Source of the DNA: Streptomyces zagrosensis
GTDB lineage: Bacteria > Actinomycetota > Actinomycetes > Streptomycetales > Streptomycetaceae
DNA: 64,000 bases
Reading direction: 5' to 3'
NCBI RefSeq assembly: GCF_014203645.1
Contig: NZ_JACHJL010000004.1
Location: 62,001-126,000 of the forward strand
Shown here: piece after piece, positions 32,326 through 59,492 of the stretch
Position numbering within the stretch: the stretch's first letter is position 1
Layout: each line of letters starts with the position of its first letter
Translations under genes and position numbers: made by a program
Notes under the pieces: generated by a model
Seen by the model: the letters and a program-made list of their open reading frames with translations, nothing else
Told to the model about the DNA's origin: nothing
Databases searched by the model: none

Positions 32326-33519
32326 GTGGCCGGCACTCCGGGAACGCCGCGCGTGCTGCGGGCAATGAACGACCGGGCGGCCCTGGACCTTCTGGTCGCC
32401 CACGGGCCGCTGACCCGCACCCAACTCGGCGAGCTGACCGGCCTGTCCAAGCCCACCGCATCCCAGTTGCTCAGCCGGCTGGAGGCGGCCGGCCTGGTGC
32501 GCGCCACCGGGACCGCCACCGGACGGCCGGGCCCCAATGCGCAGCTCTACGAGGTCAATGCGGCCATCGCGCATGTTGCGGCGCTGGAGGTCAACCCGTT
32601 CGGCATCACCGCGGTCGTCGCCGACCTCGCCGGCACGGTGGTCGGCGAACAGCACGTGGCGGCCGACGCGACGGCCGATGACGTACGCGGTCGCACCCCC
32701 GAGTTGGTCGCCGAGGCCGTGGACGGGGCGCTGCGCGCCGCGGGGCTCGGCCGGGACGCGCTGCACCGCGCCGTCATCGGCACCCCCGGCGCCCTCGACC
32801 CGCGCACCGGGACCCTGCGCTACGCACCGCACTTGCCCGGCTGGCAATCTCGTGCGCTACGCACCGAGCTCAGCGCCGTGCTCGGGGTCTCGGTCGACAT
32901 CGAGAACGACGTCAACTTGGTCGCACTGGCCGAGCACGATCGGGGCACCGCCCAGGACTTCGACGACTTCGTATTGGTGTGGGCCGATGAGGGCGTCGGC
33001 GCCGCGATCGTGCTGGGCGGCGCCCTGTTGCGCGGCGCCACCGGTGGCGCGGGCGAGATCGGCTATATGCCGCTGCCCGGCGCCCCGCTCGCGCACGGGC
33101 TCGCCGCCACCGCCGCTCCGGACGGCGGCGGCGGATTCCAGCGGCTGGTCTCCTCACCGGCCGTCGTCGCACTCGCCCAGACACACGGCTTCAGCGCCCC
33201 GGACGCCCCCAGCGCGCTGGCCGATGCGCTCGCCACTCCCGGCGCGGGCGACGACGTTCTCGCCGAACTCGCCCGCCGCCTCGCCACCGGCCTCGCCTCC
33301 GTGATCGCCGTCATCGATCCGGACCTGGTCGTGCTTTCCGGCCAGGTGGCACAAGCGGGCGGAGAGCGGTTACTCGCCCTAGTTGAGGATGAGTTGACCG
33401 GCCTCGCGCTGCCTCGGCCACAGCTACGGCTGAGCGCGCTCGACGGCAGGCCCATCCTCGTCGGCGCGTTGCGCACCGCGCTGGCCGATGCCCGTCACAC
33501 CGTCTTCGACACCGCCTGA
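32326..33519 (+). CDS. csnR: ROK-family repressor (CsnR-type)
   Basis: A 397-residue ROK regulator. The N-terminal winged helix (LTRTQLGELTGLSKPTASQL, LSRLEAAGLV) precedes a ROK sugar-kinase-like domain (VSVDIENDVNLVALAEHDRG; GAGEIGYMPLPG). The C-x-C-x-x-x-x-C zinc site of ROK kinases is absent, as expected for a pure regulator. Start GTG 32326 (MAGTPGTPRVLRAMNDRAAL) has GGGCGGGTGG upstream; GTG 32305 is an in-frame alternative with no ribosome site. It heads the operon and an operator lies just upstream. Codon 349 (33370-33372) is TTA, the rare leucine codon read by bldA tRNA, so translation may be development-dependent. Confidence 0.88.
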   Translation: MAGTPGTPRVLRAMNDRAALDLLVAHGPLTRTQLGELTGLSKPTASQLLSRLEAAGLVRATGTATGRPGPNAQLYEVNAAIAHVAALEVNPFGITAVVADLAGTVVGEQHVAADATADDVRGRTPELVAEAVDGALRAAGLGRDALHRAVIGTPGALDPRTGTLRYAPHLPGWQSRALRTELSAVLGVSVDIENDVNLVALAEHDRGTAQDFDDFVLVWADEGVGAAIVLGGALLRGATGGAGEIGYMPLPGAPLAHGLAATAAPDGGGGFQRLVSSPAVVALAQTHGFSAPDAPSALADALATPGAGDDVLAELARRLATGLASVIAVIDPDLVVLSGQVAQAGGERLLALVEDELTGLALPRPQLRLSALDGRPILVGALRTALADARHTVFDTA

Positions 33520-40776: not shown

Positions 40777-41268
40777 TGCTCCCCACCACGGCCTGCCAGC
40801 GGCCCGGGTGGCGGATGCGGACGGCGCGGGCCGGGGCCCACCGCCGTACGGGGCGCCAGGGGCGAAGTCGGAAGGTGGCTGGAAAACGCGTATATGCGTT
40901 CCTTCGGCTTTTTCTCGCTCTCTCACGTTTCGGCCCCGCCAAGGCGCCGTTCACCGTGCCGTGGATCACGTACGCGCAGTACGAACCGCCCAGGGCGCCA
41001 CGCCTCTGCGACCCGTCCGCACTCCGGGCACCAGGGCATAACGTACGGTAACGGCGCTGGTACCGGAACCGAACACCGCCTCCCGGCGTGATGGGAGGCA
41101 AGAACGCGGGCGAAGCCCTGGGGATACGGCGGCGAGGCGGCTTCTCCTGCAAGATCAGTTCACGACCGGTGTGGTTGTCAGCCCTTGCCGCCATACTGCT
41201 GCCGGGGGTGCGCACCGTCCCGGCCCGCCGGGCGCCGGTCCACTGCCAGCGAACCAGGGGGAGGTCTC
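40777..41268. other. Intergenic region upstream of glnX
   Basis: No gene is recognisable in 492 bp. A small AT-richer part (40885-40930) and the stretch around 41030-41060 (GGCATAACGTACGGTAACGG) may hold promoters. A 7-bp hairpin, GCCTCCC/GGGAGGC (41078-41084 with 41093-41099), lies 170 bp before glnX. Confidence 0.45.
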
Positions 41269-42786
41269 GTGTCACACCCGCCGACCGGCGGTATCGCGCC
41301 CATGGCTGCGCCTGCGCCCGAGGCCCCGGCTGCCACCGCGTACACCTCCGCGCCGCCGACGCTGTCCGGGCCGCCTGCGCCGCCCGGCGCGCCGCACGCG
41401 GCCTGGCGCGAGGCCCTCGACCGGTTACGCGCGGCGGCAGTGACCGAGCCGGGTCGGCTGCGGGCCATCGGCGCCCTACTGGCCGCCCTGCTCGTGGTGT
41501 TCGGCGCACTGACGGCCTGGCAGGTCGCCGACCGCTCGGACGCCGCCGAGGCCGTCGTGGAGCGCAGCCAGCCGCTGAGCGCGGACGCCGCCGACATCTA
41601 TCGTTCGCTGGCCGACGCCGACACCACGGTCGCCAGCGGCTTCCTGGCGGATGGGCCCGAGCCACGTCACATACGCAAGCGTTACGACCAGGACATCGCG
41701 CTCGCCTCCAAGCTACTGGTCAAGGCCGCGGCCAACAGCGGCGGTTCGCCCACGGCCCGCGCGCGCATCGATCAGCTCAACCGCGTGCTGCCGATCTACA
41801 CGGGCCTGGTGGAGTCGGCGCGCGCCAACGAACGGCAGGGGCTGCCTCTGGGCGGCGCCTATCTGCGGTACGCGAACGACACCATGCGCGAGCGCCTGCT
41901 GCCGGCGGCGAGCGAACTGTACGAGGCACAAAGCGGGCAGCTCCAAGCGGACTACGACGATGCGAAGGCATGGCCTTGGGTGGCGCTCGGTGTGGGCGCC
42001 CTGGCTCTTGGCGCACTGGTGTGGGCGCAGCGCCGTAACTACCGCCGTACGAACCGGGTGTTCAACCTCGGCCTGCTGGCCGCCACCGCGGCAACAGCGG
42101 CCGTCGTGCTGTGGCTCGTGGTGGGCCACAGCGTGGCGCGCGCTGGGTTGAGCAAGTCCGACCAGCACGCTGCACGGTCGCTGCGGGCGCTGAGCGCGGC
42201 GCGCATCGCGGTGCTACAGGCCCGGGGCGATGAGAACCTGACGCTGGTGGCGCGGGGCGCTGTGGTGGTCGAGAAGGGCCCGGACCGGGGCAAGGACGCC
42301 TACGAGGTGGGCTACAACGACCGGATGCAGGCCCTCATCGGTGCGTCAGCGCTGGACTCGGCCAGCACATCCGGGCCGGACGCATCGTCCTCCGAAACTG
42401 CGGTCGCCACCCGGGACAGCCTGCTGGGTCGGGCCGACGCACTGGCCGACAACGACGGCGGACGCGGGCCGGTAGCCGAGGCGATCGACGAGGCATGGGA
42501 ATGGCAGCGGCGGCACGGCGAGGCCAGGAAGACCGACGACCAGGGCGATTACGAGCAAGCGTTGGCCAAGGTCACCGGCGGCAAGGGCAGCACGGGTGAG
42601 TCCTTCGACCGCGTGGATGACGCGTTGGCCAGGGCGATCGGCCACGAGCAGGGCGAGTTCAAACGCGCGGCGGATGATGGGCGCGGCCTGCTGAACGCCC
42701 TGCCGATCGGCGCCGCCGTGCTGGCCGTGCTCGGTGCCGTGGGCACGGTGCTCGGCGTGGGCCGCAGGCTGTCGGAGTACCGGTGA
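41269..42786 (+). CDS. glnX: GlnX-type four-helix membrane sensor/relay protein
   Basis: A 505-residue membrane protein in the position and with the topology of mycobacterial GlnX. A Pro/Ala-rich cytoplasmic N-terminus leads to TM1 (about 66-87), a helical extracytoplasmic domain (about 90-232), TM2 (235-254), TM3 (265-286), a second extracytoplasmic domain and TM4 (about 477-496). Start GTG 41269 follows GGGGGAGG. The stop overlaps glnH by 4 bp (GTGA). In mycobacteria GlnX relays binding of amino acids by GlnH to the kinase PknG. Codon 53 (41425-41427) is TTA, so expression of this first gene may depend on bldA tRNA. Confidence 0.85.
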   Translation: MSHPPTGGIAPMAAPAPEAPAATAYTSAPPTLSGPPAPPGAPHAAWREALDRLRAAAVTEPGRLRAIGALLAALLVVFGALTAWQVADRSDAAEAVVERSQPLSADAADIYRSLADADTTVASGFLADGPEPRHIRKRYDQDIALASKLLVKAAANSGGSPTARARIDQLNRVLPIYTGLVESARANERQGLPLGGAYLRYANDTMRERLLPAASELYEAQSGQLQADYDDAKAWPWVALGVGALALGALVWAQRRNYRRTNRVFNLGLLAATAATAAVVLWLVVGHSVARAGLSKSDQHAARSLRALSAARIAVLQARGDENLTLVARGAVVVEKGPDRGKDAYEVGYNDRMQALIGASALDSASTSGPDASSSETAVATRDSLLGRADALADNDGGRGPVAEAIDEAWEWQRRHGEARKTDDQGDYEQALAKVTGGKGSTGESFDRVDDALARAIGHEQGEFKRAADDGRGLLNALPIGAAVLAVLGAVGTVLGVGRRLSEYR

Positions 42787-43970
42787 CGGGGGGCGGGGAC
42801 ATGCGCACGGGCAGCACGGACGGCACAGGCAGCACAGGCAGCACACAGGCCGCAGCAGCCGGAGAGGCCGCGGGTGGCACGGCGAGCCCGGGCGGTGAGC
42901 ATGCTGCGGCGAGCACGTACGGTGCGGCGGGCACGCTGCGAGCGGGGCAGCGGCCGGCCGGCCGACGACGGACGGTGGCCCTGTCGGTGGCGGGCTGCGC
43001 CCTGGCGGTGACGGCCGCGCTGCTGGCCCCGGCCGCCTTCAACAACAGCGGTCACAGCAGCCACAGAGAACAGAGCGGCCAACGGGCGCACAGCCGGCAG
43101 GCGGTGGCCCCAGCGCGGGACGGCACATCCGAGACGAGCGAGAGCTGCCAGCGCCCGGAGGAGAGCCTGCGCCCCTTGCCCATCACCGGTGACGCAGTGC
43201 GCCGGATCAAGAACCGGAAGCCCGGAAAGCTGATTGCCGGGGTGGACCAGAACAGCTTCCGCTGGGGCTACCGCGACCCGGCCACCGGCGAACTCGCCGG
43301 CTTCGACATCGATCTGGTGCGGGCCATCGCCCAGGAGATATTCGGTGATCGCAACGCGGTCATCTTCCGTACGATTCCCACTAGTCAGCGCATCCCCGCG
43401 TTGCAACAACGCACGGTGGACATCGTCGTACGGACCATGACGATCAACTGTGATCGGATCAAGAAGGTCGCGTTCTCCACCGCGTACTTCCAGGCCGGAC
43501 AGCAACTGATGGTGCCCCAGGACTCGACCATCACCTCCTACGGCCCCTCGCTGCGCGGCAAGCGGGTGTGTACGGCCACGAGCTCGACGGGTGAGGGGCT
43601 GCTCGATGACGACGGCAAGCGCGGCGCGCGGGCGCTGGGGGCGACCAAGGTGACCGTGCCCAACCAACTCGACTGCCTGGTACGGCTCCAGCTCGGACAG
43701 GTGGACGCCGTCTTGACGGACAACGCGCTCGCCGCGGGCCAGGCGGCGCAGGACCCGTCGGTGAAACTAGTCGGCGTACCGCTCACGAAAGAGCCGTACG
43801 GTGTGGCCATGAACCTGGAAGACACCGATCTGGTGCGCAGGGTGAACAAGGTGCTGGAGGATTACCGCAAGGGCGGCAAGGACAGCCCCTGGATGCAGGC
43901 ATACCGCTATTGGCTCCAGGACGACCTGAAGGGGATCACGGCACCGCCGCAACCCGCCTACAAGGACTGA
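42783..43970 (+). CDS. glnH: GlnH-type amino-acid-binding protein, membrane-anchored
   Basis: A 395-residue periplasmic-binding-fold protein (type 2, glutamine/glutamate family). A low-complexity N-terminus, then a hydrophobic helix (about 64-86, TVALSVAGCALAVTAALLAP), precede the binding domain: LIAGVDQNSFRWGYRDPATG, LAGFDIDLVRAIAQEIFGDR. The lipobox-like V-A-G-C lies inside the helix instead of at its end, so a transmembrane anchor is likelier than a lipid anchor. No transporter permease or ATPase is adjacent; its partner is GlnX. By homology to the mycobacterial protein it should sense aspartate, glutamate or similar outside the cell. Confidence 0.88.
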   Translation: MTGGGDMRTGSTDGTGSTGSTQAAAAGEAAGGTASPGGEHAAASTYGAAGTLRAGQRPAGRRRTVALSVAGCALAVTAALLAPAAFNNSGHSSHREQSGQRAHSRQAVAPARDGTSETSESCQRPEESLRPLPITGDAVRRIKNRKPGKLIAGVDQNSFRWGYRDPATGELAGFDIDLVRAIAQEIFGDRNAVIFRTIPTSQRIPALQQRTVDIVVRTMTINCDRIKKVAFSTAYFQAGQQLMVPQDSTITSYGPSLRGKRVCTATSSTGEGLLDDDGKRGARALGATKVTVPNQLDCLVRLQLGQVDAVLTDNALAAGQAAQDPSVKLVGVPLTKEPYGVAMNLEDTDLVRRVNKVLEDYRKGGKDSPWMQAYRYWLQDDLKGITAPPQPAYKD

Positions 43971-43995: not shown

Positions 43996-45402
43996 ATGGC
44001 GGCCTCGGGACCCGCCCCCAGCTCGTCGGGGATGCCCCAGGTTCCGGTCATGGACCGGGAGGAGGTGGACCGCGCGTTGGCGAAGCTGAACGCCGAGCAC
44101 GAGGCGATCGAGACCTCGCTGCTGGCGCTCCAAGACCACGCCGGCCGCAGGCTACTCGAAGGGGCCGAACTGACCGGCACCACCAAGGTGCGCTGGGCCA
44201 CCGCCGAACAGACGATCTCCATGCTGTGGACGTACTACGACGCCTACACCGTGGCCCTGGGCAAGGCCCGTGAGCTGCGCGCCCGCCGCCGCTGGCCCGG
44301 CCAGAGCGAACTCGTCGAGCTCACCGAGATATTGCGCGGCGAGCGGGTCACCGTTCCCGGCGGCGCGCTGTCCGGCTCGACCCGGCTGAGCGAACGGTTC
44401 ACCCTGGACGCCCTCGTGGAGCGGATGAACAGCGGGTACGCACAGGCGCTCGACGTCGTCGTCACCTCGGACGCCATCTGGTCGGCGCTGCCCGCGCGTA
44501 TCGACATGCTCGCCGCCGAATTGCAGCGCACCCGCTCGCTGGCGCACTCGGTGGGCGTACGGCCCGGTGAGCACCCCTCCGGGGACGACCTGGAGCAGAT
44601 CACCACCGAACTCCATGCCCTGCGCGCCGAGGTGATCTGTGACCCGCTGGCCTTTTGGTCCGGCGCATCACTCAGTTCGGCGCCCGGCGGCGGCCGTCCG
44701 AACACCGAGCGCTACGACCGGGCGGCGCGCGCCCTGGAGGAAGTGCGGCGGGAGATCGAGGCCGTGCTGGCCGTTCGGCAGGACGCGGAGCGGCGGCTGA
44801 TGCTGCTGCGCGATGTGCTCTCGCGCGCGGACCGCACGCTCACCGAGGCCAGGCAGGCGCGCGGCGAGGTGCTGGCGAAGATCGCCGCATCCGACGTGCC
44901 CGCGGTCAGCGGCCCGCCCACCGCGCTGCACGAGCAACTCGCGCTGGCCGCCGACTACCGCAGGCACTCCCAGTGGCACCGGCTGTCGCCACTCCTTGAA
45001 AGCCTCGAACAGCGGGTAGAGGACGAACTGCTGCGCGCCCGCGAGTCGTTGACGTCGGTGACCGCGCCGCTGGCGATCCGCGCGGAGCTGCGCGGCAGGC
45101 TCGACGCGTACAAGGCAAAGGTCGCCCGGCACGGGATGGCCGAGGACCCGCTGCTGATGGAGCGGTACGACGCGGCCAGGCGGTTGCTGTGGAGCGCGCC
45201 GTGTGACCTGCGTGCCGCGGAACAGTGCGTGCTGCGCTACCAGCAGGCGACGGCGGAGACGCTGGTCCCCCGGCAGCCGGCGCCGCTGGACGGGCCGCCG
45301 CTAGACCGGGCGCCGCAGGGGCGGCCGGGCGAGTCGGGTCACGGCGACTGGGATGCGCCGACCCGGCCGGGACACTCCCAAGCGCCAGGGGGCCATGGAT
45401 GA
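43996..45402 (+). CDS. Coiled-coil protein of the PknG operon, hypothetical
   Basis: A 468-residue soluble, mostly helical protein with no signal peptide. It contains extended heptad-like regions (REEVDRALAKLNAEHEAIET; RAARALEEVRREIEAVLAVR; RLMLLRDVLSRADRTLTEAR) and an Arg-rich loop (LRARRRWPGQSELVELTEIL). Near the C-terminus, LMERYDAARRLLWSAPCDLR, AAEQCVLRYQQA resembles a small helical repeat. The last 45 residues are Pro/Gly-rich. Start ATG 43996 follows AGGAGAGG, 25 nt after glnH. The stop shares ATGA with the kinase start, so the two are made together. It is a candidate scaffold between GlnX and the kinase. Confidence 0.75.
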   Translation: MAASGPAPSSSGMPQVPVMDREEVDRALAKLNAEHEAIETSLLALQDHAGRRLLEGAELTGTTKVRWATAEQTISMLWTYYDAYTVALGKARELRARRRWPGQSELVELTEILRGERVTVPGGALSGSTRLSERFTLDALVERMNSGYAQALDVVVTSDAIWSALPARIDMLAAELQRTRSLAHSVGVRPGEHPSGDDLEQITTELHALRAEVICDPLAFWSGASLSSAPGGGRPNTERYDRAARALEEVRREIEAVLAVRQDAERRLMLLRDVLSRADRTLTEARQARGEVLAKIAASDVPAVSGPPTALHEQLALAADYRRHSQWHRLSPLLESLEQRVEDELLRARESLTSVTAPLAIRAELRGRLDAYKAKVARHGMAEDPLLMERYDAARRLLWSAPCDLRAAEQCVLRYQQATAETLVPRQPAPLDGPPLDRAPQGRPGESGHGDWDAPTRPGHSQAPGGHG

Positions 45403-48146
45403 GCGCCGAATGCCAGCGGCCCGACTGCGCCGGGACCTACGAGGACATGGGCGGCGGGGAGCTGTACTGCGACACCTGCGGCTTGGCCCCCGTGGTCTCG
45501 CCCAGCGGCTTGCTCTCCTCACCACCCACCGGCATGGCGGCCGGCGGGGGCGGCGCGGGGAGCGGTCGCGCGGGCGGCTCGGGGCGGGCCGCCAGCGCCA
45601 GGGCTTCCGGGCGCTCCTCCCAGTCCACGCAGTCATCGCGGTCCACACGCTCATCGACGTCCCGTTCCGCGGGCTCGCGCCGATCGGTGTCGGGCCAGCT
45701 GTCCCGGACGTCATCGGGGCGTGCCAACAGCCGTTCGGTGTCGGTGCGCAGCTCTATGGCTTCCACCTCCTCCTCCAGCCGCAACCGGCTGGGCGCCGGC
45801 CTGGTGAGCATGCCGGCCGTGCCGCGCCCCGACCCGCGCACGGCCGTGCTCGCCGACCCGGAGGTTCCCGAGCGGAAGCGTTTTTGTAGCCGCTCCGACT
45901 GCGGCGCGCCGGTGGGCCGCGCACGGAAAGACGGTCCGGGCCGCACCGAGGGTTTTTGCACCAAGTGCGGTCACCCGTATTCGTTCGTGCCGAAGCTGGG
46001 CCCCAAGGACGTCGTGCATGGGCAGTACGAGGTGGTCGGTTGCCTCGCGCACGGCGGCCTCGGCTGGATCTACCTCGCCATCGACCGTGCGGTGTCCGAC
46101 CGCTGGGTGGTGCTCAAGGGCCTGCTCGACACCGGCGACGAGGACGCGTTGGCCGTCGCGCTGTCCGAGCGTCGGTTCCTCGCCGAGATCGAGCACTCCA
46201 ACATCGTGCGGATCTACAACTTCGTCGAACACCTCGATCAACGCACCGGCAGCCTCGACGGCTACATCGTCATGGAGTACGTGGGTGGCAAGTCGCTCAA
46301 GGAATTGGCCAACGACCGGCGCGCGGCCGATGGGCGACGCGACCCGCTGCCGGTGGAGCGGGCGTGCGCGTACGGCATCGAGGCGCTGGAGGCACTCGGC
46401 CATCTACACAGCCGCAACCTGCTGTACTGCGACTTCAAGGTCGATAACGCCATCCAGCAGGGAGACCAGCTCAAGCTCATCGACATGGGCGCGGTCCGGC
46501 GGATGGACGACGAGGACAGCGCGATCTACGGCACCGTCGGCTACCAGGCCCCCGAGGTCGCCGAGCACGGCCCGTCCGTGGCCTCCGATCTGTATACGGT
46601 GGCCCGCACCCTGGCCGTGCTCACCTTCGATTTCCAGGGTTACACCAACGTCTTCGCCGACAGCCTCCCCGACCCCAGCAATATCGAGGTATTCCGCCGC
46701 TACGAATCCTTCTACCGCCTGCTGGTACGGGCCACCGACCCGGACCCGGGACGCCGGTTCGCCTCCGCCGAGGAGATGGCCGACCAGCTCACAGGCGTGC
46801 TACGCGAAGTGGTCGCCATCCAGTCGGGACACCCGCGCCCCGCGCTTTCCACCCTCTTCGGTCCTGAACTGCGCATCGTAGACACTCAGTTGTTCGACGA
46901 GGACCACGCGGAGCCCGCACAACGGGGCGCGGGCAACGGCGCACGGCGCAGACGGCGCCCCGGGGTGACGGCGGAAGGCTCGGCGAGTGCGTCGCTGACG
47001 GCGCCAGAGACGCCCCACGCGGCAGCGGGCACCGGTATAGGCACGGGCACCGGGCAGCTTCCACACCAGCGAGGACGGGTACCGCTTTCGGGGCCGGCCA
47101 GCCCAGCAGTCACGGCCAGCCCAGCAGGCACAGCACAGCCGGCGGCGGCAACGGGCCTGGGTCAGGCGACCCTGCGGCTGGACGCCCGGGCCGCCGCGTT
47201 GGCGCTGCCGGTACCGCGCATCGACCCGAGCGACCCCAACGCCGGCTTCCTCGCCGGACTGCTCACCGCGGCCCCCGCCGAGCTGAACAGCGCCCTCCGC
47301 GCCGCCCCTGCCGACTCCGCCGAGCTGCGGTTGCGCCGGGTGCGAGCCGACCTGGAGCTGGGCTACGACCCGCTCGCCGGGCAGAGCCTGGACGCGCTGG
47401 GGGCACTGCACCCCGACGACTGGCGGATCGTTTGGTATCGCGGCTTGCATGCGCTGGTCACCGGCGACCGGGAGACGGCGGCGCTCTCCTTCGACGCGGT
47501 GTACGACGCGTTCCCCGGCGAGCCCGCTCCCAAGCTGGCGCTCGGCGTGTGTGCGGAGATGCTGGGTCAACTCGACAACGCCGCCGATTACTACCACCTC
47601 GTGTGGGCTACCGACCCGAGTTTCGTCAGTGCCGCGTTCGGGCTCGCCCGTGTGCGGTTCGCTGCCGGCGACAGGGCCGGCTCGGTCGCCGCCTTGGAGT
47701 CCGTGCCGGAGGCGTCCATCCACTACACGGCGGCCCGAGTGGCGGCCGTACGGGCCCGATTGCGCCTTGGCCCACCGCCTGCCGGGGGCCTGAAGCCGGG
47801 CGCGGACACGGAGCGACTCGCCGATCTGACGGCCGCGGCGGACCAGGTGGAGCGGCTCGCGGGCTTCGGGCTTGACGCCGTGCGGCGCGAGCGGCTGAGC
47901 ACCGAGGTACTCGGCAGCGCGCTGGACTGGATACTCTCCAGCGGCAGCGTAATTCCGCAGACCGCCAGACCCGAGGCGGCGACGGGAGCCCGGCCCGCGC
48001 TGCTCGGCAACCGTCTAGACGAGCGCGGGCTGCGCTTCGGTCTGGAACGGTCGTACCGGGTACTCGCCAGGCTCGCGCAGCGCGGCGAGGAAAGGATCGA
48101 ACTGGTGGAGCGGGCTAACCGCCTCCGCCCAAGGACGTGGGTGTGA
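45399..48146 (+). CDS. pknG: PknG-type serine/threonine protein kinase
   Basis: A 915-residue soluble kinase. Order: a first zinc ribbon (C5, C10, C24, C27), a Ser/Arg-rich linker (about 65-130), the rubredoxin-like zinc site known from PknG (C163, C168, C187, C190), the kinase domain (about 208-480) and a C-terminal TPR-like domain (about 600-915). Catalytic features are PknG-like: ATP lysine K240 (RWVVLKGLLD), the non-RD loop LLYCDFKVDN with D345 and N350, and D362 in LIDMGAVRR in place of DFG. Start ATG 45399 overlaps the previous stop. The first zinc ribbon and the Ser-rich segment are additions relative to the mycobacterial enzyme (about 750 residues). Confidence 0.92.
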   Translation: MSAECQRPDCAGTYEDMGGGELYCDTCGLAPVVSPSGLLSSPPTGMAAGGGGAGSGRAGGSGRAASARASGRSSQSTQSSRSTRSSTSRSAGSRRSVSGQLSRTSSGRANSRSVSVRSSMASTSSSSRNRLGAGLVSMPAVPRPDPRTAVLADPEVPERKRFCSRSDCGAPVGRARKDGPGRTEGFCTKCGHPYSFVPKLGPKDVVHGQYEVVGCLAHGGLGWIYLAIDRAVSDRWVVLKGLLDTGDEDALAVALSERRFLAEIEHSNIVRIYNFVEHLDQRTGSLDGYIVMEYVGGKSLKELANDRRAADGRRDPLPVERACAYGIEALEALGHLHSRNLLYCDFKVDNAIQQGDQLKLIDMGAVRRMDDEDSAIYGTVGYQAPEVAEHGPSVASDLYTVARTLAVLTFDFQGYTNVFADSLPDPSNIEVFRRYESFYRLLVRATDPDPGRRFASAEEMADQLTGVLREVVAIQSGHPRPALSTLFGPELRIVDTQLFDEDHAEPAQRGAGNGARRRRRPGVTAEGSASASLTAPETPHAAAGTGIGTGTGQLPHQRGRVPLSGPASPAVTASPAGTAQPAAATGLGQATLRLDARAAALALPVPRIDPSDPNAGFLAGLLTAAPAELNSALRAAPADSAELRLRRVRADLELGYDPLAGQSLDALGALHPDDWRIVWYRGLHALVTGDRETAALSFDAVYDAFPGEPAPKLALGVCAEMLGQLDNAADYYHLVWATDPSFVSAAFGLARVRFAAGDRAGSVAALESVPEASIHYTAARVAAVRARLRLGPPPAGGLKPGADTERLADLTAAADQVERLAGFGLDAVRRERLSTEVLGSALDWILSSGSVIPQTARPEAATGARPALLGNRLDERGLRFGLERSYRVLARLAQRGEERIELVERANRLRPRTWV

Positions 48147-48149
48147 TCG

Positions 48150-49829
48150 ATGTCGCAGAAGCCTCGGCTGTCAGCCTGCCCGAGCTGTGCGGAGCCGCTT
48201 GACTCGGCGGACAACTTCTGCGGCGCATGCGGGGCCAGCGTCGCCGTCGCGCCAGCAATGGCGACGCCAGCCGCCCGCGGGCCCGCTGGACCCGGGCCTG
48301 GCGGCCCGCACGGCGCGGTCGGGCCCGGGCCCGCACCGCAGCCTGGCCCGATGCCGCCAGCTCCTCCCGTGGCGCCGCCGGTACCGCCCGTAGCACCGGG
48401 GGGGCCTGAGATGCCGCCCGCAGCGGGGCCTTTCGAGCCGCCGCCCGTGCCACCCATGCCAGCGGGCGTGCCGCAGGCCGCAGGCACTGCGGAGCCGGCG
48501 CCGGCGTTTCCCTCGCTGACGCCGATCGCGCGCACCGTCGCGGGCACCGGCTCGGTGTCGGCACCCGGCTATGGCCCTGCCCCGGGCGGCGAGGCCGGGG
48601 CCGTACCGGCCAGCGGTGGGCCGCACGGTCGGCAAAGCCAGCCAACACAGCCAGGGCAAGCCGGGCGGCAGCCGGCTCCCGATGCCACAGCCGGCCCCCT
48701 CGGCGGCGAGGCAGGCGCGCCGCCCGATCCGCGGGAGGCGACTGCGCTCGACGCCCCGGCCGGGGTGGATGACCCCACGCTGGTGATCTGTAGCGGCGCC
48801 GGCGTGGTCGATGAGTACGGCCGCACCGACCGAAACGCAGCGGCCGGCAGCCCGCCGGCTGGCGGTGCGCCTGGTGCCGCGCCAGCGGATGGCACGCCGG
48901 GTGCCGGGGCGCCGCGCCAGTGCGCCGAGTGCCGGGCCGGTGCCATCGATGACGACGGATACTGCGAGAACTGCGGGCACGCTCAACCTCGGGAACGGGA
49001 CCACATGGAAGAGGAACTGGCGTTCGTCGCCGCCGCCAGCGACCGCGGGCTGCGGCACCGCCGTAACGAGGACTCGTTCGCCCTCTCCGAGGCCGAACTG
49101 CCAGACGGTTCGCCCGCCGTTGTCGCCGTCGTATGTGACGGGGTGTCCTCCGCGACCCGTCCCGACGACGCGTCCGCTGCCGCGGCACGCGTGGCGGGCG
49201 AGCGGCTGCTGACCGCGCTCCCTCTCGGCACCCACCCGCAGCAGGCCATGCACGAGGCGATCGTCGCCGCCGCCGACGCGGTCAATGCGCTGGCGCGCGA
49301 GCCGGGCCCGGCCCGGCAGGCCCCACAGCGGCACGAGAACGCCCCGGCCTGCACGATCGTCAGCGCCATCATCGCCTCCGGCATTCTCACGGTGGGCTGG
49401 ATCGGCGACAGCCGTGCGTACTGGGTTCCCGATGACCGCGCCACACCGGCCGCGCGGCTCACCGAGGACGACTCGTGGGCGGCGCAGATGGTGGCGGCCG
49501 GACTGTTGTCGGAGGCGGAGGCGTACGCGGACGAACGCGCGCACGCGATCACGGGCTGGCTGGGGGCGGACGCGTACGAAATCGAGCCGCACACCGCCGC
49601 ATTCAAGCCCGATCGGCCCGGCGTGGTGGTGGTGTGCACGGACGGGCTGTGGAACTACGCCGAATCGGCCCCCGAGATGGCGGCGGCCGTCCCCTCGGAT
49701 GCCAGGGCCCGGCCGATGGACAGCGCACGGACACTGGTCGGTTACGCACTGGAGGGCGGGGGCCACGACAACGTAACAGTGGCGGTGCTGCCGTTCCCGG
49801 TGCCGCCGGGGCGGGCAGGATCGGCCTAA
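48150..49829 (+). CDS. PP2C-family protein phosphatase with two zinc ribbons
   Basis: A 559-residue phosphatase. A zinc ribbon (C10, C13, C24, C27: CPSC...CGAC) opens the protein, followed by about 220 residues of Pro/Gly/Ala-rich linker. A second zinc ribbon (C258, C261, C272, C275) is followed directly by the PP2C domain. All main PP2C motifs are present: RRNEDS (304-309), VVCDGVSS with D330, GWIGDSRAYW, VVCTDGLWNY with D498, and GGHDNVTVAV with D540 and N541. It should remove phosphate from Ser/Thr using two Mn or Mg ions and oppose the PknG-type kinase 3 nt upstream. Start ATG 48150 has only a weak ribosome site, consistent with coupling. Confidence 0.93.
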   Translation: MSQKPRLSACPSCAEPLDSADNFCGACGASVAVAPAMATPAARGPAGPGPGGPHGAVGPGPAPQPGPMPPAPPVAPPVPPVAPGGPEMPPAAGPFEPPPVPPMPAGVPQAAGTAEPAPAFPSLTPIARTVAGTGSVSAPGYGPAPGGEAGAVPASGGPHGRQSQPTQPGQAGRQPAPDATAGPLGGEAGAPPDPREATALDAPAGVDDPTLVICSGAGVVDEYGRTDRNAAAGSPPAGGAPGAAPADGTPGAGAPRQCAECRAGAIDDDGYCENCGHAQPRERDHMEEELAFVAAASDRGLRHRRNEDSFALSEAELPDGSPAVVAVVCDGVSSATRPDDASAAAARVAGERLLTALPLGTHPQQAMHEAIVAAADAVNALAREPGPARQAPQRHENAPACTIVSAIIASGILTVGWIGDSRAYWVPDDRATPAARLTEDDSWAAQMVAAGLLSEAEAYADERAHAITGWLGADAYEIEPHTAAFKPDRPGVVVVCTDGLWNYAESAPEMAAAVPSDARARPMDSARTLVGYALEGGGHDNVTVAVLPFPVPPGRAGSA

Positions 49830-50169: not shown

Positions 50170-51528
50170 ATGGCCAACTTCTCCAAGTCGAATGTGCCGC
50201 AGTTCTCGGTAGAGGTCTACCAAAACGAATACCTCTCGGAAGGTGGGCGGGACGTCAGCGCGATCGTCACCGTCACCGCCACCGGCGGCGGCACCACCGG
50301 CGGCCTGCCGCTCCCCTCGCTCGATCCCCGCCATGCGGGTCTGCGGGGGCCGGGCTCTGACGCAGCGGTGGTCATCATGGTGGATTGTTCCGGTTCGATG
50401 GACTATCCGCCCACGAAGATGCGCAATGCGCGCGAGGCGACGGCTGCGGCGATCGACACGCTGCGCGACGGAGTCGCCTTCGCCGTGGTCGCCGGTACGC
50501 ACAAGGCGGCCGAGGTCTACCCCGGCGCTGGCAGGCTGGCCGTCGCCGACGCCAGCACCCGCGCGCAGGCCAAGGACGCGCTGCGCAGACTGAACGCGGG
50601 CGGCGGCACCGCGATCGGGAGCTGGCTGCGGCTCGCGGAGCGCTTGCTGTACTCGGCGGATGTGACGATCCGGCACGGCATCTTGCTCACCGACGGCCGC
50701 AACGAGCACGAGAAGCCAGAGGCGTTGCGGGCGGCCCTGGACGCCTGCGCGGGCCGCTTCACGTGCGACGCCCGCGGCGTGGGTACCGACTGGGAGGTGA
50801 AAGAGGTCACAGGCATCGCCTCGGCCCTCCTCGGCACAGCCGATATCGTGGCAAACCCTTCCGAATTGGCGATCGACTTCATGCGGATGATGGAGACCGC
50901 TATGGGGAAGGAAGTCGCAGATGTCGCCTTGCGTATATGGACTCCGCAGGACACGGACGTCACATTCATGAAACAGGTCGCGCCCACCGTCGAGGACCTC
51001 ACCGACCGTCGCGCCGACGCAGGTCCACGCTCCGGCGACTATCCAACGGGCTCCTGGGGCGACGAGTCCCGCGACTATCACCTCGCGGTGCGGGTGCCGA
51101 TCGCTTCGGTGGGCCAGGAGATGCTGGCAGCACGGGTGGCACTGGTCCTTCCAAGCCCGGACGGCGGCCCACCACAGACGCTGGCGCAGGGCCTCGTGCG
51201 CGCCGTGTGGACGGACGACATGGCGGCTTCCACTTCCATAAATCCGCAGGTCGCGCACTACACGGGACAGGCAGAACTGGCCCAGGCGATCCAGCAGGGA
51301 CTCGACGCGCGCAAGTCGGGCGACTGGGACGGAGCGACCGCGAAACTGGGCCGCGCGGTGCAACTCGCGAACGCCTCGGGGAACGCCGATACGGCGAAGC
51401 TGCTGTCAAAGGTGGTGGACGTCGTAGACGCGGTGACGGGTACTGTGCGACTGAAGGCGAAGGTCGCGGACGCGGACGAGATGACGCTCGAAACGCGCTC
51501 GACGAAGACCGTTCGCGTCAAGAAATGA
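50170..51528 (+). CDS. von Willebrand factor A domain protein
   Basis: A 452-residue cytoplasmic protein with no signal peptide. An N-terminal beta region (FSVEVYQNEYLSEGGRDVSA) precedes a vWA domain with a complete MIDAS metal site: D72-C-S74-G-S76 (VIIMVDCSGSMDY), T147 (GGGTAIGSWL) and D175 (ILLTDGRNEHEK). A beta module and a helical tail (about 380-430) follow. The protein ends in TLETRSTKTVRVKK, a basic tail with threonines. Start ATG 50170 follows AAGGAGG. vWA proteins often act as metal-dependent adaptors; here the neighbours suggest it is a substrate or partner of the kinase, phosphatase and FHA protein. Confidence 0.9.
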   Translation: MANFSKSNVPQFSVEVYQNEYLSEGGRDVSAIVTVTATGGGTTGGLPLPSLDPRHAGLRGPGSDAAVVIMVDCSGSMDYPPTKMRNAREATAAAIDTLRDGVAFAVVAGTHKAAEVYPGAGRLAVADASTRAQAKDALRRLNAGGGTAIGSWLRLAERLLYSADVTIRHGILLTDGRNEHEKPEALRAALDACAGRFTCDARGVGTDWEVKEVTGIASALLGTADIVANPSELAIDFMRMMETAMGKEVADVALRIWTPQDTDVTFMKQVAPTVEDLTDRRADAGPRSGDYPTGSWGDESRDYHLAVRVPIASVGQEMLAARVALVLPSPDGGPPQTLAQGLVRAVWTDDMAASTSINPQVAHYTGQAELAQAIQQGLDARKSGDWDGATAKLGRAVQLANASGNADTAKLLSKVVDVVDAVTGTVRLKAKVADADEMTLETRSTKTVRVKK

Positions 51529-51728: not shown

Positions 51729-53774
51729 ATGCCGACTTGCCCAAACGGCCATCAGTCGTCGGCCGAGGACTATTGCGAGGTATGCGGGCACCGCATGTCG
51801 GCCGCACCCGCCGGCGCCGTTCCCCCGCCTCCGCCGCCGCCCGGAATGATGGGCGTACCGCACCCGCCGCCGCCGCCCGCGTACCCGGGTCCGCCCGGGC
51901 CCGGAGGACCCGGCGGCTATGACCGCCCCGGTGGTTACGACGGACCGGGCGGGCACGCGCCCGGGCAGGGCCCCGGCGGCTTCGATGGACCCGGCGGCCC
52001 GGGTGGACCTGGCCGCCCTGGCGGCCCTGACAGTCCAGGCGGCTCTCAGGGGCCCGGCCCCGGTCCCGGCCCCGGCGGCCCCGGTCCCGGAGGGTTCGAC
52101 GGTCCTGGTGGTCCTGGCGGCTTTGACGGACGCGGAGGACCCGGAGGACACGGAGGACCCGGTGGACACCGCCCGAACGGGCCCGGTGAGCCTGGGGGGT
52201 TCGGGGGGTTCGGGGGGCCCGGTGAGCCCGGGGGCCCGCGCGGCTTTGGCGGCCCCGGCGGTTTCGATGGGCGCCCTGGTGGCCCGGGCAGCCCTGGCGG
52301 GTTCGACGGTTCCGGCCGCCCCGGGCCAGGGCAGGGCCCCGGCGGCTTCGATGGACCTGGCGGCCCGGGCGGGCCCGGTGGACCTGGCGGGTTCGACAGG
52401 CCCGGTGGGTTCGACGGCCCTGGCCGCCCCGGCCCCGGACCGGCTCCTGGCGGTTTTGATGGACCCGGTGGCCACGGCGGACCGAGCGGCCCCGGTGGCC
52501 CCGGTGGCCCCTTCCACGCTCCGGGCGGGCACGGTGGGCCGTCAGGCCCCGGCGGCCCGGGCGCTCCGGGTGGTTATGGCTACCCCGGTGAGCAGCCGGA
52601 CGCGACCTTCCGGGTCGAGATGTGCCCCCAGTGCCGCACGCCGCGCGAGGCGCAGGCGCCCTTCTGCGAGGAGTGCCGCTACAACTTCATCACCCACTCG
52701 GCAACCTCGTACACGCCGTACAGCCCGGCGCCGGCTCCCGGCCGAGGCGGCTTCCCGCAGCCCCAGCCCCAGGGCCCGCCGCCCCAGGGGCCACCGCCGC
52801 AGGGGCCACCCCCGCACGGCCAGCCGCCGCATCCGCACGGGTCGGAGTCATCCCAGCCGCCTGGCCCGCTCGGGCCGCCGCAGGGCATGGACTACCAGGG
52901 CTCTCGGCCGTCCCAGGTGAACCGCCCCGCCGAGCCGCTGCCCCCGCAGCCGCCGCACGCTGGAGGCCAGTACGGCGGTGCGCCGGGCGAGCGGCCCGCG
53001 GACCCGCCGAGCGGCCAGGGCTTCGGGGGCAACGACGACTGGATGCTCTCACCGCCGGGTTCCCCGGAGGCTGCGGCTCAGGCCGCAGCGCCGCACCCCG
53101 GTGCCTCGGCGCCTGCGCCGCCCCAGCAGTTCCCCAACGCTCCGGGTCAGGGCCCCGGTGGCGCACCCTCGGGCCGGCCCCCCTTCCACGGGGACGACGA
53201 CTTCCCGGGTGCGGCACCGCCGCAGCCGGGACCGCCGCCCTTCCCCGGGCAACAGGGGCAGCCGCCGTCCGGCCCGTCCCAGCACGGGCAGCCGCCGCAG
53301 CCCGATGGTGGCTACCGGCCGGATGGGGCGTACCAGCAGGGTCCGCCCGCAGGCGGCCAGGCCGGAGCGGGCAACTGGGTCGCGGTCATCGCGCCTGACC
53401 GTGACTACTTCATGGCGATGATGACGCGCAGCGGCCCCGAGGCGTCCGGGCTCAACTTGCCCGCGTACTCCCCGGAGCAGCAGGTGTCCTTGTCGGGGAG
53501 CCAGATCACCATCGGTCGTCGCCGGCACAGCACGGGCGAGGCCCCTGACATCGATTTGTCCCGGCCGCCCGAGGACCCGGGCGTCTCGCACCAGCACGCG
53601 GTGCTGGTGTCGCAGCCGGACGGTGGCTGGGCCGTCGTGGACCAGGACTCCACGAACGGCACGACCATCAACGGCGGCGATGAACCGATCCAGCCGTACG
53701 TGCCGATCCCCCTCCAGGAGGGCGACCGGGTCCACGTAGGCGCGTGGACCACGATCACGGTCCGTAGGGGCTGA
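51729..53774 (+). CDS. FHA-domain protein with zinc ribbons and collagen-like linker
   Basis: A 681-residue protein. The N-terminal zinc-binding motif is C4, H8, C16, C19 (CPNGHQSSAEDYCEVCGHRM). It is followed by a very long Gly/Pro linker (about 30-290) rich in GPGGP, GGFDGPGG and GRPG units. A second ribbon follows (MCPQCRTPREAQAPFCEECR), then a Pro/Gln-rich region. The C-terminal FHA domain (about 590-681) has the conserved phosphothreonine-binding features: ITIGRRRHS, then V-S-H-Q-H, then DSTNGTTING. FHA domains read phosphothreonine, so this is the likely output or adaptor of the kinase cassette. Start ATG 51729 has GGGGGAA upstream. Confidence 0.92.
   Translation: MPTCPNGHQSSAEDYCEVCGHRMSAAPAGAVPPPPPPPGMMGVPHPPPPPAYPGPPGPGGPGGYDRPGGYDGPGGHAPGQGPGGFDGPGGPGGPGRPGGPDSPGGSQGPGPGPGPGGPGPGGFDGPGGPGGFDGRGGPGGHGGPGGHRPNGPGEPGGFGGFGGPGEPGGPRGFGGPGGFDGRPGGPGSPGGFDGSGRPGPGQGPGGFDGPGGPGGPGGPGGFDRPGGFDGPGRPGPGPAPGGFDGPGGHGGPSGPGGPGGPFHAPGGHGGPSGPGGPGAPGGYGYPGEQPDATFRVEMCPQCRTPREAQAPFCEECRYNFITHSATSYTPYSPAPAPGRGGFPQPQPQGPPPQGPPPQGPPPHGQPPHPHGSESSQPPGPLGPPQGMDYQGSRPSQVNRPAEPLPPQPPHAGGQYGGAPGERPADPPSGQGFGGNDDWMLSPPGSPEAAAQAAAPHPGASAPAPPQQFPNAPGQGPGGAPSGRPPFHGDDDFPGAAPPQPGPPPFPGQQGQPPSGPSQHGQPPQPDGGYRPDGAYQQGPPAGGQAGAGNWVAVIAPDRDYFMAMMTRSGPEASGLNLPAYSPEQQVSLSGSQITIGRRRHSTGEAPDIDLSRPPEDPGVSHQHAVLVSQPDGGWAVVDQDSTNGTTINGGDEPIQPYVPIPLQEGDRVHVGAWTTITVRRG
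51880..52590 (+). repeat. Collagen-like Gly-Pro-rich coding repeats
   Basis: Dense, imperfect repeats of GGNCCNGGNGGN and GGCTTCGATGG units encode G-P-G-G-P and G-G-F-D-G-P-G-G blocks in the FHA protein. Several 20-40 bp sections recur nearly identically (for example GGGCAGGGCCCCGGCGGCTT near 51963 and 52332). Confidence 0.8.
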
Positions 53775-56063: not shown

Positions 56064-59000
56064 GTGGCGGGTTTTGTGTTCCTGCGGGTCCGCGCGCATC
56101 GATTGCTATTGGCTGCCGCGCTGGTCACCGTGCTGCTCACCACCGCCGTGCTGGCCACCCTTGCCGCCTTCACCACTGCCATCGGCGACGCCGGGTTACG
56201 GCACACGCTGCGTGAACGGTCCGCCGCGCCCGCCGCGTTGCGGGTGGCCACGAGCCTGCCGGAGGCGGAGCGCGCGAACGCCGAGCGGGTGGTACGGCGC
56301 GGCGCCGAGCAAACGTTTCACGGCCTGCCGGTGACGCTCCGCTCGATGGCTCGTTCCGGCCCCTACGCGCTGCCTCGCGAGCTTCAGTCCCCCGCCGCAC
56401 GCGAGGGCGACCCGGATCTGACGCTGTTCGCGACCATCGACCGCTCCCGCGTCAAGCTGGCCTCCGGCGCGTGGCCCCAAAGCACCGCACAGGGGTCCAA
56501 CGCCACCGGCCCGCTGCCCGTCGCGCTGCCTGAGACGGCCGCCGCGCGGCTGGGGCTGCGCGTGGGGGCGACGCTCACCCTCGCCGACCGGCTCTCGGGT
56601 CCTTCCGTGCCGATTCGGGTCACCGGCCTGTATCGGCCCAAGGACCGCACCGACCCGTATTGGCGCCTCGACAACCTCGGCGGCAGCGGCGTACGGACGC
56701 TGGCGTTCACCACGTACGGGCCGCTGCTGACGGACGGTGCGGTCTTCCGCGACGGTCGGGTCGCGCAGGCCGGGATGTCATGGCTGGCGACGGCCGACTT
56801 TTCCAAGCTGACGGCGGATGATGTGGACGGGTTGCGGTCGGCCGCCGAACGCGGCCGGGACGCGCTGGCCAAGGACCCCGCGCTCGGTAGCCCGCAGGTG
56901 AGCACGGCCCTGCCGACCGTGCTCGACCAGGTGGACCGCTCGCTCCTCGGCGCTCGTTCGACGCTGCTGATCGTGACGCTGCAACTCATCCTGCTCGCCG
57001 GATACGCGCTGCTGCTCGTGGCGCGGTTGCTGAGCTCCGAACGCGCGGGCGAGACCGAGTTGTTGTTGGCCCGCGGTGGTTCGGGCGGCCGGATCGCGTG
57101 GCTCGCTGCCGCCGAGGCGCTGATGCTGGCCGGCCCCGCCGCCGTGGCGGCGCCGCTGCTCGCCGGCCCGTTGATGGAACTCCTCGCCGCGCATGGGCCG
57201 TTGGCTCGGATCGGATTGCGGCTCGATACCGGACTGACCCTGCAAACGTGGGTGGTGGGCGTCGCCGTGGCGCTGGGTTGCGCGGCGGCCGTGGTGGCCC
57301 CGGCGCTGCTCGGAGCGGGGGCGCAGGGTGGCACATCGGTGGTGCGCACTCGGGCCAGCGCGCTGCCCGCGCCGCTGCGCGCCGGGGCGGATATCGGCCT
57401 CCTGGTCATCGCCGCCGTCGCGTACTGGCAGCTCGACCAGCAGACTTCGGGCGCCGGCAGCGGCGTACTCAGCACAGACGGCGGCGCCCTCGGGGTGGAC
57501 CCCGTGCTGGTCACGGCGCCCGCGTTGGCCCTGCTCGCCGGCACGGTGCTCACCCTGCGGCTGCTGCCGCCCGTCGCCAAGATCGCCGAACGTCGGGCGG
57601 CGCGCGGCCGTGGCCTGCCCGCCGCGCTCGCTGGGTGGCAGCTCTCCCGCCGTCCGCTGCGGGGCGCGGGCCCGGTCCTGTTGCTCGTACTCGCCGTCGC
57701 GATGGGCATGTTCGCGGTCGGCCAGGGCGCCTCCTGGGAGCGGTCGCAGGACGACCAGGCCGACTTCGCGGCCGGCACCGGCGTGCGCGTACTGTCCAGC
57801 CGCACACCGCAGTTCGGGCAGGGCGGCGCGTACGAGGCGGTGCCGGGCGTGGCCGCGGCTGCGCCCGCCGCCCGTACGCACTTCGGCCTCTCCGGCGGGC
57901 GCGGAGCCTCGTTGCTCGCGCTGGACGCGGAGCACGCCAAGGGCTCGCTGCTGCTGCGCGACGATCTGGCGGGCCGCGACGGTGATGGGCTGCTGGCCGC
58001 CGTCGCGCCGCGCGCCGGCGACGCCAAGCGCCCCGGCATAGCCCTGCCGGGCGCGCCCGACGCGTTGCACCTGGCGGCCCGGCTCAGCGCACCGGGCCAG
58101 CCGCGGAACGCCTCGCCCAGCGACACGGTGGCCAACGTCGCGGTGACCATCGAGGACCGCTACGGCGTCCCGTACCGGCTGCGCCTGGGACAACTGCCCG
58201 CCGATGGCGCGCCCCATACGCTCGTCGCCGGCATCGCGCAAGCGGCGGGCGCGCCTGCCGGCAAGCCCGCGGGTCCGCTGCGGTTGACCGCCATCGAGCT
58301 GGATTTGTTGCAGCCTGACCGTGACGAGCAGCACCGCTTCGAGCTGAGCGCCCTGCATGCGGTGGCCCCGGGCGGGGGGTCCCGCGCGGTGCCGGTGCCG
58401 GACACGTTCGACTGGGGGGCCACGAGCGTCTTCACAGCGGAGGCGCCCGGCGCGGTCCGGGTCAAGCCGCGCGCCGAGCAGCCGCAGCACACGGCGGACC
58501 GGCCGTTGACGGCCACCTACCACACCGGAGGGCACGCCGGGGTAGGCCGCTACGGCGCTGCTCCCACCAGCACGTTCACCTTCGCCGCGCCCTGGCAGCG
58601 GCAGCCGGGGCCGCTGCCAGCGGTGGCCACCGACCGCTTCTTGGACTCCAGCGGGGCGAAAGTCGGTTCGACGGTCAACGTGCCGGTTGCGGGCGAGACG
58701 CTTTCGGTACGGATCGTGGCGGCGGCCCGCGCCCTGCCCACGACGGGCGACACGGCCGACCAGGCAGGCGGCGGGGCCGCCGACCAGGCGGCGAACACAA
58801 GGAGCAGCGGGGGTGCCGGCGACGCGGACTCCGGTGGCGGTTCAGGGCCGGACGGTGGTGCGCTGCTGGTTGATTTCCACGCCGTAAACCAGGCGCTCGC
58901 TGCCCGCTCGTCGGCCTCGCTGCCGCCGACCGAGTGGTGGCTGCGGCCGGCTGCCGGCAAGGACGATCAGGTCGTGGCCGCGCTACGGCAACGGCCCGAC

Positions 59001-59492
59001 ACCGACCCCGCGCAGGTCATCGCGCGTTCCGAGATCGCGGACGAGCTGCACGACGACCCGTTCGGTGCCGGGCCGCAGGCCGGGCTCAGCGCGGCGGCCC
59101 TGGTCGCGGCGGCTTTGGCGGCGGTCGGTTTCGCGGTCAGCATGGCGGGCTCGCTGCGCGAACGCGGCGCGGAATTCGGTGTGTTGCGCGCCCTGGGCAC
59201 CCCACGGCGGCAACTCGCCCGCATGGTCGCCGCGGAACAGGCCCTCCTGATCGGCCTGGCGCTTGCGGTCGGACTCGCCCTGGGCACCGTGCTGACCAGG
59301 GCGGTCGTCCCGCTGATCGTACTGACCGGCGAGGCGGCCCAGCCGGTGCCCAAGGTGCTGGTCGAACTGCCGCTGTGGCAGGTCGGCGGGGTGCTCGCGG
59401 CGGTCGCCGCCGTACCCGTACTGATCGTCGCGGCGGTAGCGCTACGACGCGGCGACCCGGTCGCCACACTCCGCCACCGAGGAGGTGACTAG
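56064..59492 (+). CDS. FtsX/MacB-type ABC permease 1
   Basis: An 1142-residue membrane protein with duplicated FtsX-like permease domains. An N-terminal helix (RLLLAAALVTVLLTTAVLAT) is followed by a large extracytoplasmic domain, a cluster of helices around 300-560, a second large extracytoplasmic domain, and a C-terminal FtsX domain (MAGSLRERGAEFGVLRALGT, a typical coupling-helix motif, then the last helices). Start GTG 56064 (MAGFVFLRVRAHRLLLAAAL) is chosen for its GGGGGG and hydrophobic start; GTG 56007 and TTG 55986 are in-frame alternatives. Codon 45 (56196-56198) is TTA. It should work with the next permease and ATPase in export or lipoprotein/lipid handling. Confidence 0.85.
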   Translation: MAGFVFLRVRAHRLLLAAALVTVLLTTAVLATLAAFTTAIGDAGLRHTLRERSAAPAALRVATSLPEAERANAERVVRRGAEQTFHGLPVTLRSMARSGPYALPRELQSPAAREGDPDLTLFATIDRSRVKLASGAWPQSTAQGSNATGPLPVALPETAAARLGLRVGATLTLADRLSGPSVPIRVTGLYRPKDRTDPYWRLDNLGGSGVRTLAFTTYGPLLTDGAVFRDGRVAQAGMSWLATADFSKLTADDVDGLRSAAERGRDALAKDPALGSPQVSTALPTVLDQVDRSLLGARSTLLIVTLQLILLAGYALLLVARLLSSERAGETELLLARGGSGGRIAWLAAAEALMLAGPAAVAAPLLAGPLMELLAAHGPLARIGLRLDTGLTLQTWVVGVAVALGCAAAVVAPALLGAGAQGGTSVVRTRASALPAPLRAGADIGLLVIAAVAYWQLDQQTSGAGSGVLSTDGGALGVDPVLVTAPALALLAGTVLTLRLLPPVAKIAERRAARGRGLPAALAGWQLSRRPLRGAGPVLLLVLAVAMGMFAVGQGASWERSQDDQADFAAGTGVRVLSSRTPQFGQGGAYEAVPGVAAAAPAARTHFGLSGGRGASLLALDAEHAKGSLLLRDDLAGRDGDGLLAAVAPRAGDAKRPGIALPGAPDALHLAARLSAPGQPRNASPSDTVANVAVTIEDRYGVPYRLRLGQLPADGAPHTLVAGIAQAAGAPAGKPAGPLRLTAIELDLLQPDRDEQHRFELSALHAVAPGGGSRAVPVPDTFDWGATSVFTAEAPGAVRVKPRAEQPQHTADRPLTATYHTGGHAGVGRYGAAPTSTFTFAAPWQRQPGPLPAVATDRFLDSSGAKVGSTVNVPVAGETLSVRIVAAARALPTTGDTADQAGGGAADQAANTRSSGGAGDADSGGGSGPDGGALLVDFHAVNQALAARSSASLPPTEWWLRPAAGKDDQVVAALRQRPDTDPAQVIARSEIADELHDDPFGAGPQAGLSAAALVAAALAAVGFAVSMAGSLRERGAEFGVLRALGTPRRQLARMVAAEQALLIGLALAVGLALGTVLTRAVVPLIVLTGEAAQPVPKVLVELPLWQVGGVLAAVAAVPVLIVAAVALRRGDPVATLRHRGGD

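Follow-up and report, generated by a model that had tools for sequence, protein, structure and literature searches.

Does a TTA codon in glnX, the first gene of an operon that also contains pknG, place a signaling operon of Streptomyces zagrosensis under the control of the bldA tRNA? The original prediction, made on the window (the whole 64,000-nucleotide stretch of DNA analyzed here), held that it may, and that a block at this codon could affect the whole unit because glnX overlaps glnH. The codon itself is confirmed. TTA occupies positions 41425 to 41427 of the forward strand, flanked by CGG and CGC; counted from GTG 41269, it is the in-frame codon 53 of glnX. Running from 41269 to 42786 on the forward strand, the gene has 505 codons for 505 amino acids, with a TGA stop at 42784 to 42786 and a frame that is open throughout. 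GTG 41269 looks right as the true start, judging from the ribosome-binding region AGGGGGAGGTCTC directly 5' of it (41256 to 41268, forward strand) and from the starts of the orthologues. This region is conserved in the genus, being identical in the two nearest relatives (G047 and G170) and similar in the other 13 aligned upstream regions, and VTHPP or a similar sequence forms the protein N terminus of several glnX orthologues. The TTA thus lies downstream of a supported start, about one tenth of the way into the gene.

The name glnX was given because of the gene's place in the operon, the topology of its product, and its conserved location next to pknG; a Pfam search of the product returned 0 matches. 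GlnX has four hydrophobic, membrane-helix-like segments (residues 66 to 84, 234 to 252, 267 to 285, and 477 to 495), consistent with the established topology of Corynebacterium glutamicum GlnX (PMC9769921); two outer domains are presumably present, as placed from the spacing of these segments. Codon 53 belongs to the N-terminal tail ahead of the first segment, and the tail 5' of this codon is poorly conserved. Downstream, all on the forward strand, are glnH (42783 to 43970), encoding a family-3 solute-binding protein according to Pfam, orf3 (43996 to 45402; 468 amino acids), for which no Pfam family was matched, and pknG (45399 to 48146), whose product has the rubredoxin, kinase, and TPR domains in Pfam. 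The order glnX-glnH-(orf3)-pknG, with a four-helix membrane protein, a family-3 binding protein, and a rubredoxin-kinase-TPR kinase, resembles the mycobacterial and corynebacterial GlnX-GlnH-PknG-GarA/OdhI pathway, GlnX being likened by topology. Unlike that pathway, the operon here has an extra orf3 before pknG and a TTA in glnX.

The tRNA that the original prediction presupposed is encoded in the same genome. An intact bldA gene for tRNA-Leu with the anticodon TAA is present, as it also is in G047 and G170. A search of the window's genome with an anticodon-arm pattern gave one match at two or fewer mismatches, while at three mismatches the matches were about as numerous as those of a control pattern. 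In an inventory of six Streptomyces species, each had a single UUA-reading gene and no wobble substitute (PMC4932002). By the decoding rules, codon 53 of glnX should need the bldA tRNA, and the synthesis of GlnX may fall when this tRNA is scarce.

Among the orthologues surveyed, the codon is absent. TTA at codon 53 was found in 0 of 231 glnX orthologue loci of the genus (1 of them gapped there), which consist of 151 loci from genus genomes (150 distinct genomes, one of them fetched twice) and 80 named loci that are the best-scoring 80 of 575 and lean toward the window's gene; the two sets may share species. The site is occupied by CTG in 155 loci, GTG in 19, CTC in 17, GCG in 13, TTG in 10, CTT and GCC in 5 each, GTC in 3, and ATC, ATA, and TTC in 1 each, that is, by another leucine codon in 187 loci and by a non-leucine residue in 43. 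Leucine is not required at residue 53, which varies across the genus. Retention among orthologues, which supports but does not strictly define a bldA-regulated gene, is therefore not seen. The original prediction had named a strain-specific TTA as the first of two signs that would speak against it, and this half is borne out, at the species level.

These counts depend on the starts and genomes used. Starts with a ribosome-site score of at least 5 were present in 221 of the 231 loci, and the alignment-based start was used for the other 10; a start chosen too late would mask an N-terminal TTA. TTAs that precede the start in stop-to-stop frames were left uncounted (L051, L061, L077, and L087, as well as L028 and L032, which come from another genus and lie outside the 231), and one locus (L026, from G010) was excluded because N covers its codon-53 site. 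Any match to glnX was found in 197 other genomes of the genus, of which 150 were included and 47 left out; among the latter, G008, G066, G098, and G118 count as weak matches (G008 gave 0 matches in the orthologue search), and these genomes may lack glnX or have it in an unassembled region. In G002 and G021, the closer glnX is accompanied by a further homologue that is more distant (49% and 44% identity, respectively). Of the 80 named records, 78 carry Streptomyces titles. The glnX of a record titled Streptosporangium nondiastaticum (L053) is 64% identical to the window's gene, as close as Streptomyces records are, which is possibly a matter of naming.

In a FastTree protein tree, G047 and G170 form the sister pair of the window's glnX with a support of 1.0. 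Both have CTG at codon 53; they are distant sisters (64 to 66% protein identity to the window's GlnX). By parsimony, the TTA would have arisen on the window's own branch, with two base changes needed from CTG. Elsewhere in glnX, a TTA occurs in only 1 of the 231 loci (L143, codon 126), and sporadic TTAs are found in other genes of relatives' operons, namely in orf3 of L042 (8490 to 9806, codon 344) and L105 (8456 to 9778, codon 171) and in pknG of L102 (10018 to 12762, codon 89). Such scattered occurrences form the pattern that drift would give.

The background rate of the genome points the same way. A home-made gene finder predicted 320 genes in 464 kb of the window's genome, and 20 of them carry a TTA. 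For a gene with 54 leucines, which is the number in glnX, the probability of at least one TTA is 0.108 if all genes set the rate and 0.058 if only those with a GC3 of at least 0.84 do (8 of 224 carry TTA), so that a single TTA in glnX is unsurprising and within the genome background. Nor is the proportion of TTA-bearing genes unusual in this genome: it is similar in G170 (8/139) and G074 (7/104) and higher than in G047 (3/143), G013 (1/115), G153 (2/98), and the regions around glnX in the named loci (6/701 predicted genes; best 80 of 575), the last of which all represent one conserved part of the genome. Within the window, no TTA was found in glnH, orf3, or pknG or in three genes further downstream (48150 to 49829, 50170 to 51528, and 52887 to 53774). 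Three other predicted genes of the window bear a TTA: 32353 to 33519 (codon 340), 56064 to 59492 (codon 45), and 59702 to 62692 (codon 798).

Codon usage in this genome is shifted. In a 400-kb sample, GC3 is 0.863, compared with 0.928 to 0.949 in the relatives sampled, CTA accounts for 3.06% of leucine codons, compared with 0.14 to 0.55% in relatives, and 12 of 14 A-ending codons (all but AGA and ATA) are more frequent than in either comparison set. This shift to A-ending codons may have helped the TTA to arise. As G170 and G074 have like TTA shares but far fewer CTA codons, codon drift alone does not set the frequency of TTA. A special sequence context of TTA, suggested by the C that follows 15 of 24 TTA codons (against 27% after CTG and CTC), was dropped as an idea because C also follows 64% of CTA codons and 48% of six other A-ending codons taken together.

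Taken together, the codon and its frame, its absence from the orthologues surveyed, the presence of an intact bldA gene, the background rate, and the shift to A-ending codons make it probable that this leucine codon is private to the window's own branch, as opposed to a conserved switch of development; a recent, incidental substitution is more likely than an established switch. Several observations count against this explanation. The TTA lies early in glnX, and a review describes the TTAs of streptomycetes as tending to be near gene starts (PMC4255298); signal transduction genes are reported to be enriched in TTA in 126 of 213 species (PMC10327506). In addition, in-frame TTA is below expectation in this genome, which means that the TTA of glnX has survived some selection and could be favored.

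In the genome sample, 24 in-frame TTA codons were seen against 64.4 expected (ratio of 0.37), the expectation being calculated as CTA × TTG / CTG, with the first and third bases treated as independent; when stratified by GC3, it is 72.5. AGA, the parallel arginine control, was seen 97 times against 67.8 expected, and the TTA ratios elsewhere in the genome are 0.85 and 0.89 in the other frames, 0.75 in antisense, and 1.13 in intergenic sequence. In-frame TTA looks specifically avoided in the window's genome, and we infer that this avoidance reflects selection. The corresponding ratios in relatives are above 1 (1.17 in G047, 2.86 in G170, 7.6 in G074, 2.14 in G013, 4.4 in G153, and 3.04 in the 80 named regions, the best 80 of 575), which muddies the argument from selection, but they derive from 1 to 8 codons each, with expectations (0.5 to 2.8) that are too small to show avoidance.

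Together with the real codon past a supported start and the tRNA gene, this under-representation makes it plausible that translation of GlnX is limited by bldA. One might go further and suppose an adaptive switch of this species, in which production of GlnX (and of GlnH, by coupling) waits for charged bldA tRNA to accumulate and nutrient sensing by PknG is thereby delayed to late growth. The presence of the tRNA gene, the rarity of in-frame TTA in the genome sample, the early position of the TTA in the first gene of the operon, and a report that deletion of glnX mimics loss of pknG in Mycobacterium smegmatis (PMC6069109) are all in keeping with such a switch. Given that codon 53 is TTA in 0 of 231 loci, that the background rate explains it, and that residue 53 itself varies across the genus, we consider this unlikely.

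How far would an effect of the TTA reach? The overlap of glnX and glnH that was originally claimed is real (GTGA, 4 bases, 42783 to 42786), and translational coupling of the two genes through it is probable. The glnH start is at the same offset in 67 of the 80 named loci (best 80 of 575), the others having no glnH start within 10 nucleotides (8 loci), other offsets (1 locus), or a gene missing (4 loci). Ribosomes lost at codon 53 could lower GlnH as well. The situation of pknG is different. A gap of 25 nucleotides separates orf3 from glnH, the ATG of orf3 is preceded by a separate ribosome site, AGGAGAGGTGATCG, and pknG overlaps orf3 by ATGA; translation of PknG should therefore not depend on that of glnX, and its protein level would remain largely unaffected. 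All four genes (glnX, glnH, orf3, and pknG) occur together in 76 of the same 80 loci; the pknG overlap offset is found in 61 of these 76, and an orf3 start with its own ribosome site between -20 and +120 nucleotides of the glnH stop in 51, with 25 lacking one.

A block of the entire operon by the TTA, extending to pknG through lost coupling or polarity, is for this reason very unlikely. The GTGA overlap and its recurrence among the named loci would fit such a block, as would the polarity linked to TTA that has been proposed for a gene cluster of S. coelicolor (PMC2000904) and the single promoter from which the three genes of the mycobacterial operon are expressed (PMC6069109). However, pknG overlaps orf3 and neither glnX nor glnH, orf3 has a ribosome site of its own, and glnH, orf3, and pknG are themselves devoid of TTA. 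Of the whole-unit effect that was predicted, a decrease in GlnH by way of the overlap may stand, while a corresponding decrease in PknG is not expected, unless by transcriptional polarity. Because deletion of glnX resembles loss of pknG in M. smegmatis, a lower level of GlnX could still lower the activity of PknG; what might be reduced is only its activation, which depends on GlnX in mycobacteria. If the TTA is indeed private, it is an ordinary, lineage-specific event whose expected effect is local, on GlnX and perhaps GlnH.

The regulator gene adpA is the classic and usual main target of bldA. The gene that we take to be its orthologue in the window's genome (G000:C4:307828-308844; L304), 96% identical to a 340-residue AdpA query, has no TTA in frame and carries CTG at the canonical TTA site (the L of DRSLPEE). 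The same is true of adpA in the sister genomes G047 and G170 (L307 and L336). The canonical TTA is present in 22 of 29 relatives, which are the best-scoring 29 of 149 other genomes and do not provide an estimate for the genus; among the seven without it, L324 does have a TTA at another place in adpA. A review describes adpA as the only gene that bears TTA in all streptomycetes analyzed (PMC4255298), and the most frequent TTA orthogroup, whose gene is not named in the sentence concerned, covers 187 of 213 species (PMC10327506). The loss is therefore not unique. The TTA-free adpA is a more unusual fact than the TTA of glnX, and the S. coelicolor model of bldA is not simply transferable to this genome.

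A small clade that has bldA but a TTA-free adpA offers a natural case of the role of bldA once its best-known target is disconnected. CTG in adpA of three genomes, retention of the tRNA, the low TTA level in the window's genome, and a TTA in a membrane sensor might be read as a rewiring in this clade, by which the tRNA gates nitrogen and TCA cycle signaling via GlnX, the sensor that would switch on PknG, instead of the master developmental regulator; we regard this as most improbable. The TTA could also be without effect, the tRNA-Leu(UAA) being available throughout growth, the codon being misread, or translation restarting at GTG codon 58. Expression of a TTA gene can be leaky without bldA, as in the case of adpA of S. 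ghanaensis (PMC3814723), control by bldA is at least altered here since adpA is free of TTA, and the tail 5' of codon 53 is poorly conserved. Nevertheless, the under-representation of in-frame TTA suggests that the codon is still costly, and GTG 58 has no ribosome site, so that an absence of effect is unlikely.

Codon 58 (41440 to 41442, forward strand), five codons past the TTA, is the sole in-frame ATG, GTG, or TTG from the TTA up to the first membrane segment. It has no upstream sequence resembling a Shine-Dalgarno site, and the GTG also exists in the TTA-free nearest relatives. Restart at this codon as an answer to the TTA is rejected on both grounds.

What can be retained of a bldA-dependent signaling operon is the in-frame TTA, the tRNA gene, and the under-representation of TTA; against it stand the 0 of 231 loci, the background rate, the expected independence of PknG synthesis, and the TTA-free adpA. 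A search of titles and abstracts in the open-license literature found no report of bldA control of the glnX-pknG operon. Like the bldA-dependent genes adpA, actII-ORF4, and redZ, glnX is a regulatory or signaling gene with one in-frame TTA in a genome that encodes tRNA-Leu(UAA). Unlike glnX, whose TTA is known from sequence, these genes have a bldA dependence that is reported from experiments (PMC4255298 and PMC2635970), and the TTA of adpA is widely conserved, whereas that of glnX occurs in one genome only when compared with 231 loci. The closer likeness is to the volatile, lineage-specific TTAs of the genus, most of which are described as poorly conserved and as differing between close species (PMC10327506). 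From these, the TTA of glnX shows no difference in kind, although the operon to which glnX belongs is conserved and TTA is less common in such surroundings (6 of 701 predicted genes in the best 80 of 575 regions). TTAs are often taken for developmental switches on sight; when the orthologues are surveyed and the genome background is considered, a private TTA needs no such reading.

Upstream of glnX, the window contains GGAAC and CGTG separated by 17 bases (41065 to 41090), and GGAACCG is found in 11 of 16 aligned upstream regions, two of which are identical there. This element, a putative promoter, resembles those of ECF sigma factors. A second block (41150 to 41199; CAAGATC ... CCATACTGC) is located between the GGAAC element and the glnX start, and CCATACT is present in 15 of the 16 aligned regions.
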